Source: Clostridiaceae bacterium (lineage in GTDB: Bacteria; Bacillota; Clostridia; Saccharofermentanales; Fastidiosipilaceae). Taken from it: 38,165 nucleotides of DNA. A model generated the notes under the pieces. That model saw only the letters and a program-made list of their open reading frames with translations. It searched no databases and was not told where the DNA came from. The translations under genes were made by a program, and so were the position numbers. Position 1 is the first letter of the stretch. Each line of letters starts with the position of its first letter. Below are positions 13,421 to 38,040 of the stretch, piece by piece. The stretch is from NCBI GenBank assembly GCA_012520525.1, contig JAAYOA010000149.1, positions 1 through 38,165 of the forward strand, in the 5' to 3' direction.

Positions 13421-14620
13421 ATGATTTCTTCACTCGCCATTATATTTTTAGTAGGTCTGTCTTTGGCAGAAATTTGTCACAAATTAAATTTGCCGCGCTT
13501 GATTGGACTTCTGATCTCAGGTATTGTGCTAGGCCCTTTTATACTTGATTGGATTGCTCCCTCACTTCTTTCTATTTCTGCAGAACTAAGACAGATTTCT
13601 TTAATCATTATTTTGTTTAAAGCAGGTTTGTCATTAAATTTAGCTGACTTAAAATCTGTGGGGCGTCCAGCGTTCTTAATGACTTTCGTTCCAGCGAGCC
13701 TGGAAATTTGCGCTTATATCCTACTTGCGCCAATTTTATTTAATATAAGCCATATAGAAGGAGCAGTCATGGGCTCTGCACTCGCAGCCGTATCCCCAGC
13801 CGTAGTTGTGCCCAAAATGCTTCAGTTTATGGAACAGCGGTATGGCACGAATAAAAATATTCCTCAACTTATTTTAGCCGGCGCATCGGCTGACGATATT
13901 TTTGTTATTGTACTGTTTTCAGTTTTTCTAGGTATGACTCAGGGACACAGATCACAGGTGGGTGACTTTTTAAAATTCCCCATTTCCATCGTGAGTGGCA
14001 TATTCTTGGGAATTGCAGCTGGATTATCCTTATATTTATTTTTTGAAACTGCCTATGTAAAGAAAAACTATGTCAGAAATAGCATGAAGGTCATTATTAT
14101 TCTCGGGGTTGCCTTTCTTTTCATAGCGATAGAAGAGTGGCTTAAGAATAAAATTGCCATTTCAGGACTTCTTGCCGTCGTCAGCATGGCGGCGATGATA
14201 AGAAGAAAGAGCTCCCCCTTTGTATCACAAAGATTGTCCGAAAAATTTGGAAAACTCTGGCTGGCAGCCGAAATCCTATTATTTGTCTTAATCGGAGCTG
14301 CAGTTGACATCAGATACACATTGAACGCTGGTTTGCCGGCCATTCTGATGATTTTAATCGCATTAATCTTTCGATCAGTAGGCGTCATATTATGTCTTGC
14401 CGGAACAAATTTAACATGGCAGGAACGATTATTTTGTGTTATAGCTTATTTGCCCAAGGCAACGGTTCAAGCGGCAATCGGTTCAGTCCCTCTTGCAATG
14501 GGCTTGTCCTGTGGTCAAATGATCTTGTCGGTTGCTGTCCTTGCAATCCTCATAACAGCGCCTTTAGGTGCACTCGGTATGGACCACACCTATCAGAGAC
14601 TCTTACATAAAGATAATTAA
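13421..14620 (+). CDS. cation:proton antiporter (CPA family)
   Basis: 399 aa; about 11-12 hydrophobic segments; LPRLIGLLISGIVLGP, AAVSPAVVVPKML, GASADDIFVIVLFS. Confidence 0.85.
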   Translation: MISSLAIIFLVGLSLAEICHKLNLPRLIGLLISGIVLGPFILDWIAPSLLSISAELRQISLIIILFKAGLSLNLADLKSVGRPAFLMTFVPASLEICAYILLAPILFNISHIEGAVMGSALAAVSPAVVVPKMLQFMEQRYGTNKNIPQLILAGASADDIFVIVLFSVFLGMTQGHRSQVGDFLKFPISIVSGIFLGIAAGLSLYLFFETAYVKKNYVRNSMKVIIILGVAFLFIAIEEWLKNKIAISGLLAVVSMAAMIRRKSSPFVSQRLSEKFGKLWLAAEILLFVLIGAAVDIRYTLNAGLPAILMILIALIFRSVGVILCLAGTNLTWQERLFCVIAYLPKATVQAAIGSVPLAMGLSCGQMILSVAVLAILITAPLGALGMDHTYQRLLHKDN

Positions 14621-32251: not shown

Positions 32252-32547
32252 ATTAACCTCCTGGTGCTCAACTAAAATTTATAATTATACTGTATATTAA
32301 CACTATTCTGACAAAGTATGAATACCAAACCTTGTACAATAAATAATAAATGCAAATTTTTTATAAGTAGACTATGATGTGACAAAAGAAATAATTTAAT
32401 AAACTATGTCTAGATTTGCAAATTTGTTCATAATTTATCATTATAATACATACTGAATATTTACAAAAAAGGTTATTCAACAAAATTGTTTAACTTGAAC
32501 ACTAAACTATATCAAAAGCTTGATATTAGCACAGGGAGGAATTAAAC

Positions 32548-33408
32548 TTGTCTAGCGAATTCGCTGAAAGCAAAATTTTGTCTCCTGAACCATCGGTTCA
32601 AAATAAAAAACGAAAAGTTGTACTGATTAGCGGTGGCTCAGGTGGGATTGGTAGAGCAACCGCGAATCAATTCGCTGATCTTGGCTTTATTACATACGAA
32701 GTTAGCCGCAGTGGAACAGACCGACCAGGCATCAAACATATTACCGGTGACGTAACTGTCAAAGAAGATATGGAGCGAGCGGTTGCCATGGTCATGGCTG
32801 AAGCGGGTCGCTTAGATATTGCCATCAGCAACGCAGGATACGGCATAGCTGGACCGATCGAAACCACTTCAGAGTCTGACGTAAAAATGCAGTTTGACGT
32901 AAATTTTTTTGGTGCTGTTCATTTTATTCAGGCTGCTTTACCTGCACTGAGGACAAGTGGCGGTGGTCGCATCCTCGTAACATCTTCGGTAGCTGCAGTG
33001 ACCCCCATTCCATTCCAATCATTTTATACCTGCACAAAAGCATCGTTGAATCAATTAGTCCTCTGCCTAAACAATGAATTGAAGCCATTTAATATTCAAT
33101 GTGTCGCTCTCATGCCGGGAGATACCTGCACGACATTTACAGATCATCGTTGTTTAACAGTTGCTGAAGAAGACCCAATTTATGGCAATAGGGCAATCAA
33201 TTCAATACGCAAAATGGAAAATGACGAGCGATGTGGCAGCGACGTCGAACCATTGGCTCGTCGCATCGTTAAATTAACAACTCAAAAAAGAACACCCAAA
33301 CCTGTTCAAGGTTTTGGACCAGGGTATCGGACGCTTCTCTTTTTAGCAAAGATTTTACCAGTTCGCCTAATGAATGGGATTTTATACAAACTATATGCGA
33401 AATCTTAG
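32548..33408 (+). CDS. short-chain dehydrogenase/reductase
   Basis: LISGGSGGIGRATANQFADLG Rossmann motif; ISNAGYGIAGP; YTCTKASLNQL catalytic YxxxK; TTG start behind agggagg. Confidence 0.9.
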   Translation: MSSEFAESKILSPEPSVQNKKRKVVLISGGSGGIGRATANQFADLGFITYEVSRSGTDRPGIKHITGDVTVKEDMERAVAMVMAEAGRLDIAISNAGYGIAGPIETTSESDVKMQFDVNFFGAVHFIQAALPALRTSGGGRILVTSSVAAVTPIPFQSFYTCTKASLNQLVLCLNNELKPFNIQCVALMPGDTCTTFTDHRCLTVAEEDPIYGNRAINSIRKMENDERCGSDVEPLARRIVKLTTQKRTPKPVQGFGPGYRTLLFLAKILPVRLMNGILYKLYAKS

Positions 33409-33642
33409 TAGAATTTTTATGTATAAGAGAAGTTATCATAATACACAAAAAAATAACAGAAGAATTGTGCTTTTTATCATATAGTTATATATTAAATAAC
33501 GAACTATGAGAAAATTTACATGATGTATATTAGAAAAGAAATAAAATATATAATTATACTGTTTTAGAGAAAAACAAGATTAGTATATGGCAACTCAAAA
33601 CCAAAGCCCCCCATTCGTAGGGACTCTCAAAGGAGAATAAAG

Positions 33643-34893
33643 ATGGATTTATTTCAAAAGTGTTATGACTATAAACGCGTTGATATGGCTAAGGCATGGT
33701 CTATATATCCTTATTTCCACGAACTCAATTCCGGACAATCGGATGTTGTTGAAATGGAAGGCCGACGCACAATTATGTTGGGCTCAAATAACTACTTGGG
33801 ATTGACCAGTGATCCCCGGGTCAAGGAAGCTGCAATAAAAGCAATCGAAGAATATGGAACGGGGTGTTCTGGTTCACGATTTTTAAATGGTACATTAGAT
33901 CTCCACGTGCGCTTTGAAGAAGATCAGGCAGAATTTTTACAAAAAGAGGCCTGCTTAACTTTTTCGACTGGATTCCAATCTAATCTATCAATTATTTCAT
34001 CTATGACAGGGCGCAACGACGCTATTATTTCTGACGCATTTAATCATGCAAGTATTGTCGATGGTATGCGCCTGTCATTTGCCAAACAATATAAATATCC
34101 GCACAGCGATATGGGAGAATTAGAGCGACTTCTGAATAAATGTCGTGAGCGTGGTCAAGGAAAAGGCGGCGATGGCGGTGGTATTTTGATCGTAACCGAT
34201 GGCGTCTTTAGTATGGAAGGTGATATCTGCGATCTGCCCAATATCGTCAGGCTAGCAAAAGAATATGGTGCTAGGATTCTGGTTGACGATGCCCATGCAT
34301 TAGGTGTCCTTGGAGAGAGAGGAGCTGGAACAGCAGAATACTTCGGACTCGTGGACGAAGTTGATTTAATCATGAATACATTCTCCAAAAGTTATGCTTC
34401 GTTAGGCGGTTGTGTCGCCGGTGAAGCTAAAGTCATTGAATACATAAAGCACGTGGCCAGACCCTTTATCTTTAGCGCGAGCTTACCTCCAGGACAAATT
34501 GCAGCGGCACACGAAGCACTGCGAATTTTAAAATCAGAACCTGAACGTGTCTCTCGTATTCATGAGTTGACAGCTGATGTCAAAGCGCGATTAAAAGAAC
34601 TGCCACACGTCGAAATTCGAGAAAGTAACAACGATATCGTGCCTATTATTCCAATCAAGACGGGCACTGTTGTACAAACCTTATATATAAGTAAACTCTT
34701 ACTCGAGGCTGGCGTCTATGTGAACCCAGTGCTGCCGCCAGCCGTACGTGAAGGCGAATGTCTGTTGCGAACCAGTTACACGGCCACTCAGTCACCTGAA
34801 CTTATACACGAAGCAATAGAAATTATCGGCAATGTCTTTGCGTACGCAAAAGAAAATCCTTTGCCAGATGAAATTAGAAATACCGATCTATAA
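33643..34893 (+). CDS. PLP-dependent alpha-oxoamine synthase, most like serine palmitoyltransferase
   Basis: GRRTIMLGSNNYLGLTSDPRV, YGTGCSGSRFLNGTLDLHVRFEE, FNHASIVDG, VDDAHALGVLGERGAGTAE, NTFSKSYASLGG (PLP Lys), RPFIFSASLPP. Confidence 0.85.
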   Translation: MDLFQKCYDYKRVDMAKAWSIYPYFHELNSGQSDVVEMEGRRTIMLGSNNYLGLTSDPRVKEAAIKAIEEYGTGCSGSRFLNGTLDLHVRFEEDQAEFLQKEACLTFSTGFQSNLSIISSMTGRNDAIISDAFNHASIVDGMRLSFAKQYKYPHSDMGELERLLNKCRERGQGKGGDGGGILIVTDGVFSMEGDICDLPNIVRLAKEYGARILVDDAHALGVLGERGAGTAEYFGLVDEVDLIMNTFSKSYASLGGCVAGEAKVIEYIKHVARPFIFSASLPPGQIAAAHEALRILKSEPERVSRIHELTADVKARLKELPHVEIRESNNDIVPIIPIKTGTVVQTLYISKLLLEAGVYVNPVLPPAVREGECLLRTSYTATQSPELIHEAIEIIGNVFAYAKENPLPDEIRNTDL

Positions 34894-35251: not shown

Positions 35252-35680
35252 ATGAAGAACGGATTATTCTATGAACTGGAGCAAATAGGTTTAGTTGCTG
35301 CAGATGCTAAAGCAATGGCCAAAAATTATGAAGAAATATTGGGTATTGGACCATGGAACTTTCTAGAATTTAAATTATCACCAGATGAAGAGCAGAAGAC
35401 CGTCATCGCTTCCGGAAAAATTAAAGATGTAGAACTAGAAATTATTGAACCACACAGCGATAAAGTTATTCACACTAAATTTTTGGAAGATAATGGACCT
35501 GGATTACATCATCTTTTATTCCGCTGTGATGATATGGACAAAGCCAGTGCATACCTAATTGAAAAGGGCTTAGAAGTTCTCGAAGACATCAAACTGGGTT
35601 CGGTTCGCTGGATGTATTTTGACGGTCGCGAATTATTCGGCGCCATTATAGAAGTTCACGATATGGGAGATCTTGCTTAA
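35252..35680 (+). CDS. VOC/glyoxalase-fold protein (methylmalonyl-CoA-epimerase-like)
   Basis: LEQIGLVAADAKAMAKNYEEILGIGPW; GPGLHHLLFRCDDMDKASAYL; RELFGAIIEVHD. Confidence 0.8.
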   Translation: MKNGLFYELEQIGLVAADAKAMAKNYEEILGIGPWNFLEFKLSPDEEQKTVIASGKIKDVELEIIEPHSDKVIHTKFLEDNGPGLHHLLFRCDDMDKASAYLIEKGLEVLEDIKLGSVRWMYFDGRELFGAIIEVHDMGDLA

Positions 35681-35757
35681 ATATTCATTTTCCAACGAAA
35701 TATTATTTGATAATTTAACGTACAGATACTTCTAGAATGCTTTAAGGAGTACGTATT

Positions 35758-36810
35758 ATGAAGGCTGTTGTAAAAACACAAAGTGGAAAGGGATTTTTAG
35801 AGTTTCAAGACGTCCCAGAACCCGAACCGACGGGATTTGAAATGAAAGTGAAAGTACACTACGCACCAATCTGCGGTTCAGATTTAGGAGTCTGGAACGG
35901 ATTTGAACCCGTACCTTGGGGATGGCCCTGTGTCGTCGGACACGAATTTAGCGGCACAATAGAATCGATGGGTCCTCTTGCAAAAGGATTTGAAATAGGT
36001 GATCGCGTCGTCGCTCGCACACTCAAGGATTTTTGTGGACATTGCCACTCTTGCCTACAGGGGCGACCAGATAAATGTCCAAATGGACGCCATAGCATCG
36101 GTTTCAATACAAACGGTACACTCACTGATTATGTTTTAATCGATTCTCGAATGGCTTTTAAACTCCCAGACCACATCGATATGCTCGCAGCTTCCGCCAT
36201 CGAGCCGACGGCTGCCACGGTCCGAGCAGTCTTTGAAATTGCCCGGGTGAAAGCAGGAGATACGGTTGCCATTATGGGAGCAGGTAGCATCGGACTAATG
36301 GTGCTGCAAGGTGTTAAAGCTTGCGGTGCAAAAGCTATATTAATTGATCTGTCGAGCGCAGCCCACAACTTAGAGGTTGGTAAAGAATTGGGTGCCGATT
36401 ATATCATTGAAAATGATAAGTGCAATTCAATTAAAGAAGTCCGCCAATTGACCAAAGGTGTAGGTGTCGACATCGGTTTTGAATGTGCCGGTCATGCTTC
36501 TACAATATCCCAACTGTTGCTAATGATAAAATCTTCAGGTTCTATGGTAGAGGTAGCCGTGCCCACCGAAGAGGGAGGACCTAAAATAAGCACTTATAGC
36601 CTCGCTTGTATGCAAGAAATTCAAATTCTATCTGCCTTTGATGCCCATATGAGCACATGGATAAAAACGATGGAATTAGTTTCAGATGGAGTGATTGATC
36701 CTGGTGTATTGATGTCAAAAGTTTATCCACTGGATCAGTTCTTTGAAGTGTTAGAAAACAAGGATCCCACTGTAATCAAACCTGTATTTTCCCCTTTACT
36801 TAAAGAGTAG
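35758..36810 (+). CDS. zinc-dependent medium-chain alcohol/polyol dehydrogenase
   Basis: GHEFSGTIESMG, CGHCHSCLQGRPDKCPN structural Zn motif, VAIMGAGSIGLMVLQ. Confidence 0.9.
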   Translation: MKAVVKTQSGKGFLEFQDVPEPEPTGFEMKVKVHYAPICGSDLGVWNGFEPVPWGWPCVVGHEFSGTIESMGPLAKGFEIGDRVVARTLKDFCGHCHSCLQGRPDKCPNGRHSIGFNTNGTLTDYVLIDSRMAFKLPDHIDMLAASAIEPTAATVRAVFEIARVKAGDTVAIMGAGSIGLMVLQGVKACGAKAILIDLSSAAHNLEVGKELGADYIIENDKCNSIKEVRQLTKGVGVDIGFECAGHASTISQLLLMIKSSGSMVEVAVPTEEGGPKISTYSLACMQEIQILSAFDAHMSTWIKTMELVSDGVIDPGVLMSKVYPLDQFFEVLENKDPTVIKPVFSPLLKE

Positions 36811-36827
36811 TTGTAAAATTTAATTCG

Positions 36828-36892
36828 TCAAAAAGCTGTTTCAAGATAATAATTGATCTAAATAATTTCTATCAACTTGCAACAGCTTTTTG
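36828..36892. terminator. bidirectional terminator-like inverted repeat
   Basis: TCAAAAAGCTGTTtCAAG...CTTGcAACAGCTTTTTGA. Confidence 0.7.
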
Positions 36893-37170
36893 ATTTATTC
36901 ACAAACAAGAAATAAGTTACCCATGGTGCTGCGAACATATAATCGTTTTCAGCTTTTTATTAATTAAGGTCATATTGCACAAATTTTTAATTGAAACCGA
37001 CGTAAAATTATAATATGCACACATATATTTGCAGTTTCTTTAGTCGGTGGACACAATGAAATTTATTTAACGACTCGATAGAATTAAATCAATGAGACTA
37101 CTTTATATTTAAAAAATTAATAAAAATTTCATCCAACTGATTCCCAAAATATAAGATTAAGGAGCAGACC

Positions 37171-38040
37171 ATGACCAAAGAAATCAAAAAACCAGCATTA
37201 ATTGGCGGTGGTGTAATCGGCACACAGATTGCTTATCAAATGGCATTTAGAGGATTTGATGTTCACGTTTACGACATTAATGACGAAGCTGTTGCCCGTT
37301 CCAAAAAGCAAGTGGACGAAACTGCACTTTTATACCAAGAAGATCTCGGTGTTAGCCAAGAAGAAACTGACGCTGCCAAGGCAAGAATGACCTACTATAC
37401 AGATTTAGCCGAATGTGTCAAAGATCGCGATTTTGTCGTTGAAGCAATTATCGAAGATGTGGGCGCTAAGAAAGACATTTTCTCAAAATTATCTGAACTC
37501 TGCCCCAAGGAAACCATCTTTGCTACAAATAGCTCTACATTCATTCCCAGTCAATTAATTGACGCAGTGGATCGCCCCGAGCGTTTCCTTGCATTCCACT
37601 TTATGATTATGATTTGGCGTAATAAACAATGTGACGTTATGATGGGACCGAGCACCGATCCAGAGGTCTTTGATGCCGTCGTTCGTTTCGGTGAAGCGAT
37701 GGATTTAAAAGTTCTCCGCATCAAAAAGGAACAACCTGGTTATATCATCAACAGCTTACTCATTCCCTTGCTGGATGCAGCGCTTGATTTACTAGCAAGA
37801 GGAGTGGCTTCTCCGGAAGACATCGATTATACATGGAAAGTCGGTACAAAAGCAGCCGTTGGTCCTTGTGTTATGATGGATCGTATTAATTTGAAGACTG
37901 TATATTATACATTTAATTCCATCTATGAAAAGACAAAAGCTGACAAATATAAGACGATCGTTGATTATGTGAAGACTAACTTCATTGACCAAAATAAGTT
38001 TGGTATGGAGTCAGGTGAAGGATTCTATAAATATAATTAA
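37171..38040 (+). CDS. 3-hydroxyacyl-CoA dehydrogenase-family NAD-binding protein
   Basis: ALIGGGVIGTQIAYQMAFRGFDVHVYD; FATNSSTFIPSQL; FLAFHFM; KEQPGYIINSLLIPLLDAALDLL; FGMESGEGFYKYN. Confidence 0.88.
   Translation: MTKEIKKPALIGGGVIGTQIAYQMAFRGFDVHVYDINDEAVARSKKQVDETALLYQEDLGVSQEETDAAKARMTYYTDLAECVKDRDFVVEAIIEDVGAKKDIFSKLSELCPKETIFATNSSTFIPSQLIDAVDRPERFLAFHFMIMIWRNKQCDVMMGPSTDPEVFDAVVRFGEAMDLKVLRIKKEQPGYIINSLLIPLLDAALDLLARGVASPEDIDYTWKVGTKAAVGPCVMMDRINLKTVYYTFNSIYEKTKADKYKTIVDYVKTNFIDQNKFGMESGEGFYKYN

Follow-up and report, generated by a model that had tools for sequence, protein, structure and literature searches.

The SPT question in Clostridia

Sphingolipids are usually linked to animals and Bacteroidetes. 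A pair of genes on a contig assigned to the Clostridia, one for an SDR reductase and one for a PLP-dependent alpha-oxoamine synthase (AOS), raises the question of whether such a bacterium encodes the first two enzymes of long-chain-base synthesis, or whether the pair serves another pathway with related enzymes. The window, which is the whole stretch of 38,165 nucleotides that was analysed, is one contig (C101) of a 2.3-Mb metagenome-assembled genome (G000) that is 92.7% complete. Named relatives carrying the AOS gene are metagenome-assembled genomes from digesters and sediments labelled Clostridiaceae, Clostridiales or Mageeibacillus sp. UBA5734/UBA5747, all of which are Bacillota, Clostridia in the NCBI taxonomy. 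Since orthologues in 31 related genomes form one clade, contamination of the bin is an unlikely source of the pair.

Both open reading frames, their strand and the 234 bp between them are as an earlier, sequence-only reading had described them, and all of the AOS strings quoted there were found in the sequence. The SDR frame encodes 286 amino acids from a TTG start and the AOS frame 416 amino acids from an ATG start (Table 1). A scan of the gap found promoter-like and terminator-like sites not in excess of shuffled sequence, and the gap in relatives with the same orientation is 42-146 bp. The two genes are likely co-transcribed.

Table 1. Features of the SDR-AOS locus, with the fusion gene of relatives
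Feature	Coordinates	Strand	Basis or remark
GGGAGG, Shine-Dalgarno-like, 8 nt before the TTG start of the SDR	32534..32539	+	sequence
SDR reductase, candidate KdsR-like 3-ketosphinganine (3-ketodihydrosphingosine) reductase	32548..33408	+	ORF, profiles, motifs, tree
AT-rich 234-bp gap between SDR and AOS	33409..33642	+	sequence, promoter/terminator scans, gap comparison
AGGAG, Shine-Dalgarno-like, before the AOS ATG	33631..33635	+	sequence
PLP-dependent AOS, bacterial serine palmitoyltransferase (SPT) clade	33643..34893	+	ORF, profiles, PDB matches, active-site residues, trees/AU tests
AOS residues: internal-aldimine Lys249, PLP-stacking His135, Asp215, His218, Arg376	within 33643..34893	+	alignment to S. 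multivorum SPT
AMP-binding + phosphopantetheine carrier + AOS fusion, ~1150 aa, family f3	L032:5006-8491; also L031, L033, L034, L040	- (L032)	candidate replacement of stand-alone SPT

A profile search of the window identified DapA, DapB and TrmFO upstream of the pair. On its 3' side (35252-38040) lie genes for a VOC/methylmalonyl-CoA-epimerase-like protein (35252), a zinc alcohol dehydrogenase (35758) and a 3-hydroxyacyl-CoA dehydrogenase (37171); none of the three recurs beside the pair in relatives, and they were rejected as members of the module. Elsewhere the window contains a tmRNA gene (RF00023; 8904-9280) and a fluoride riboswitch (RF01734; 13299-13375) directly 5' of a Na+/H+ exchanger-family gene (13421-14620), an association of a type already known.

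Identity of the alpha-oxoamine synthase

The AOS was the sole alpha-oxoamine synthase found in a search of its genome. Read from sequence, its motif strings had seemed closer to SPT than to BioF or Kbl. The NCBIfam profile scores agree, with 479 bits for SPT-CFB (NF047600, E = 7.7e-144), 360 for BioF and 354 for the Kbl-type profile. Because 479 bits lies below the 640-bit cut-off of the NCBI equivalog SPT-CFB, which a Parabacteroides reference SPT exceeds with 684 bits, the AOS is not filed in that equivalog. The best PDB match was the SPT of Sphingobacterium multivorum (SmSPT; PDB 3A2B, 8GUH), with an E value of 4.6e-113 and 381 bits. Over about 390 residues the AOS is 49% identical to SmSPT and 49% identical to the Parabacteroides protein (WP_005854840.1), and both lie in the same clade as the AOS.

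Reference AOS sequences were taken from PDB alignments and annotated plasmid records. In a tree of 34 rows the AOS fell within an SPT clade of 18 rows (100/99 support), together with characterised bacterial SPTs, the AOS of the window's order and other Bacillota SPTs; the branching order inside this clade was without resolution in that tree. Constraining the order's AOS to group with BioF (p-AU 0.0018), Kbl (0.00015) or HemA (3.5e-6) was rejected, and the tree and AU tests together rule out these three identities. The phylogeny that the sequence-only reading had proposed as a check thus places the AOS with SPT.

These results bear directly on a rival explanation, in which an ordinary BioF or Kbl has an unrelated SDR as its neighbour. 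The BioF-type profile scores of the AOS are substantial, and in two relatives (L038, L039) a Kbl-like AOS adjoins an epimerase-type dehydrogenase, showing that such pairs exist in the order. Against this stand the tree and AU tests, the lack of bio genes or tdh adjoining the AOS, and the same SDR type accompanying the AOS across the phylum and by presence and absence, and we consider the explanation highly improbable. A Kbl/Tdh pair for threonine catabolism was likewise rejected, as the AOS lies outside the Kbl clade; the L038 and L039 loci provide the contrast.

Roles have been assigned to the SmSPT residues in contact with PLP and L-serine (PMC10196870), and further roles have been described in comparing SPT with cysteate acyltransferase (PMC9304779). 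Among the residues checked in the alignment, SmSPT Asn52, Gly80, Ser81, His138, Ser185, Asp210, His213, Thr241, Ser243, Lys244 and Arg367 are all conserved in the AOS, as are Tyr27 and Phe83 of the acyl pocket. By descent and active site, then, the AOS is a predicted serine palmitoyltransferase. It is unlike the S. multivorum and Parabacteroides enzymes in its score, which is under the equivalog cut-off, in an 8-residue Gly-rich insertion near residue 170 that is carried by the window's order, and in two positions near the active site: SmSPT Gly240 is replaced by Asn245, also carried by the order, and Ala79 by Ser76, common to other Bacillota SPTs. The two replacements could shift the amino-acid or acyl preference.

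SPT and SulA have the same fold and almost the same active site (PMC9304779), and the PDB matches of the AOS include a solved cysteate acyltransferase. Both points would fit a SulA-like enzyme of sulfonolipid synthesis with a capnine-type product. SulA has Lys281 where SPT has Ala (PMC9304779); the AOS has Ala279 at this position, as in SPT, when aligned by place in the FSAS motif with the correspondence read from PMC9304779. The PDB cysteate acyltransferase scored 225 bits in comparison with 381 for SPT. We rejected a SulA-type cysteate enzyme on the missing marker residue, SulA having been compared by residue correspondence outside the tree and alignment, and regard this identity as scarcely credible.

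A divergent AOS was also seen on a Bacteroides fragilis mobilizable plasmid (L140:2881-4116, forward strand), where it is followed by a TetR regulator. It scores 393 bits to SPT-CFB and has Ala at both the Gly80 and Ser81 positions.

The reductase and its association with SPT

The SDR matches Pfam PF00106 (E = 2.2e-37) and contains an NAD(P) motif, SGGSGGIG (residues 28-35), a catalytic Ser within TSSVAAV (145-151), and YTCTK (160-164). The KdsR profile NF049977 was the top of its 209 NCBIfam matches at 185 bits, and among the 13 SDRs of its own genome it scores highest on this profile, the runner-up reaching 107. The cut-off of this NCBI equivalog is 400 bits, above the score of the SDR, and it was reached in none of 148 Bacteroidota genomes and in none of all the genomes searched; the KdsR name by itself is therefore weak proof, and we dropped NF049977 as proof of identity. 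The SDR is distant from the best Bacteroidota profile matches, with 29-34% identity. Like BT_0972 of Bacteroides thetaiotaomicron and eukaryotic KDSR/TSC10 (PMC9278070), to which it is likened by motifs and context only, it has a Gly-rich cofactor motif and a Ser-Tyr-Lys catalytic set and occurs in a genome with an SPT. BT_0972 has been expressed in E. coli together with the Bacteroides SPT (PMC9278070). The genetic evidence for the SDR as a partner of SPT is better than the profile name.

The SDR adjoins the AOS in many genomes of the window's order. A phylum sample of 399 genomes yielded, apart from the window's genome, 19 with an AOS that scored 534-571 bits on the SPT profile, and the SDR type was present at 17 of these 19 loci. 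Gene order varied from lineage to lineage in the set of loci compared: it was SDR then AOS at 10 loci (the window included), AOS then SDR at eight, and convergent at nine. Five of the eight AOS-then-SDR loci (L123, L125, L130, L131 and L133) have a 4-bp overlap of the SPT stop and the SDR start, which reads ATGA in L131 and suggests translational coupling. Unless the two genes share a function, it is difficult to account for adjacency that is kept or re-formed in differing arrangements. When the SDR does not adjoin SPT, it is mostly encoded elsewhere in the same genome.

A DegV-family gene lies a few genes or less from the SPT-SDR pair at seven loci (L118, L120, L121, L129, L130, L132 and L134) in two phylum families. 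The DegV family includes fatty-acid-binding FakB proteins.

Presence and absence were compared across 96 genomes of the order, counting a KdsR-like SDR at E <= 1e-40. Such an SDR was found in 29 of the 32 genomes with SPT, some of which have the two genes on different contigs, in comparison with 19 of the 64 without SPT. Both genes are missing from all 29 genomes of one family (f2). Within genus g13 the SDR occurs in 5/5 SPT-positive and 0/2 SPT-negative genomes, and within genus g15 in 1/1 and 0/2, respectively. Conservation of the pair among relatives, another check proposed from the sequence, is therefore seen both by position and by presence and absence. The suggestion that the upstream SDR could be a KDSR-type reductase has likewise gained ground, the SDR being the best of 13 on the KdsR profile and paired with SPT in relatives, and we treat it as a candidate 3-ketosphinganine reductase.

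Fourteen of the 19 SDR-positive, SPT-negative genomes carry another AOS, a fusion of AMP-binding, carrier and AOS domains (Table 1), whose domains were checked on one copy, the remaining copies being inferred from open-frame length. When SPT or the fusion is tabulated against the SDR, the counts are 43/5/5/43 (Fisher p 9e-16, a value inflated by the relatedness of the genomes in the table, which are not independent). On the SDR tree, the reductases of genomes with the fusion group close to the SDR of the window, at modest support values (86-90). The fusion's AOS domain scores 356 bits on the BioF profile and 308 on SPT; because it is not clearly SPT, the fusion as an SPT replacement is only a lead. 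An acyl-ACP thioesterase-like gene (L032:8680-9498) lies next to the fusion, a neighbour that is sometimes seen, and in phylum family f50 one genome (L182) has a 537-aa frame matching the carrier-AOS part only. Rhodobacteria have a separate AasR-AcpR-SPT trio (PMC9386255), which the fusion resembles in one chain. It is tempting, if still somewhat doubtful, to speculate that Clostridia lacking an outer membrane make sphingoid bases via SPT and KdsR, and that part of the order swapped SPT for a self-loading chain of AMP-dependent fatty-acid ligase, carrier and AOS, a one-chain form of the Rhodobacterial trio, while keeping a KdsR-like reductase elsewhere in the genome.

Proposed function and distribution

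The clade and active site of the AOS, the profile rank of the SDR, their pairing and their co-occurrence make a long-chain-base module the best reading of the locus, and the pair probably encodes the enzymes for steps one and two of sphingoid base synthesis. In this reading the AOS is a soluble homodimeric SPT on whose PLP-Lys249 L-serine would form an external aldimine. Condensation of the serine with a long-chain thioester, either acyl-CoA or acyl-ACP, would release CO2 and give 3-ketosphinganine. The SDR would then reduce the 3-keto group with NADPH to give sphinganine. We infer the serine substrate, a C14-C18 acyl donor, the NADPH cofactor, the product and the keto-to-alcohol direction.

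The pair might instead make another 2-amino alcohol, from alanine or glycine (1-deoxy bases) or from a shorter or branched acyl thioester, with the SDR reducing the aminoketone, possibly toward a secondary metabolite. SPT takes alanine and glycine slowly (PMC10196870), the Asn and Ser that replace Gly240 and Ala79 adjoin the active site, and the locus has no linked acyl donor enzyme. The serine-contacting residues that were checked, however, are all conserved, and S. multivorum SPT uses serine with the same residues. Moreover, the pair is spread over several families and lies close to housekeeping genes, a pattern that fits membrane lipid synthesis more than a patchy secondary metabolite. We judge such a product improbable, although less so than the BioF/Kbl and SulA identities.

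In the long-chain-base reading, the KdsR-like reductase of the window's pair would carry out the second step, matching eukaryotes and Bacteroides, where SPT is followed by KdsR (PMC9278070). The gene adjoining the Parabacteroides SPT belongs to the diacylglycerol-kinase family, whereas the AOS is adjoined by a KdsR-like gene. The Caulobacter-type pathway (SPT, bCerS, CerR, AcpR, AasR; PMC9386255, PMC11334938) has the first step, SPT, in common with the window, but AcpR, AasR, bCerS and CerR are not in the neighbourhood of the window's pair. In Caulobacter, unlike eukaryotes and Bacteroides, dihydroceramides with unreduced backbones were found, and acylation is listed ahead of reduction (PMC9278070, PMC11087976). 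The window's pair has no known ceramide synthase, dedicated ACP or acyl-ACP synthetase as a neighbour.

The premise of the sequence-only reading that bacterial sphingolipids are known mainly from Bacteroidetes and some Proteobacteria is dated, since Spt-like genes have been reported in some 40 phyla (PMC11334938). Candidates in Gram-positive bacteria, among the Actinobacteria, have also been mentioned (PMC12134224). A literature search confined to one collection found no paper on SPT in Clostridia. The pair is a new lineage for genes of this already widespread kind, and its distribution is of interest.

No Omp85 was found in the window's genome or in eight SPT-positive relatives, nor in phylum families f24, f38, f114 and f129, while SPT-positive families f35, f116 and f138 have it. 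The pair, or SPT at least, therefore occurs both in bacteria that show signs of an outer membrane and in bacteria that show none, and its occurrence in bacteria without Omp85 is unexpected.

On the strength of their genes, the Clostridia that carry the pair, related Bacillota included, may make a sphingolipid-type lipid. If so, sphingoid bases would be made in a clostridial lineage without Omp85, and sphingolipids would not be solely lipids of the outer membrane. The linked SPT-reductase pair, with overlapping frames in some families, would name the second-step enzyme for many anaerobes, and Clostridia, in addition to Bacteroidetes, could be a source of the long-chain bases reported from digesters, rumen or gut.
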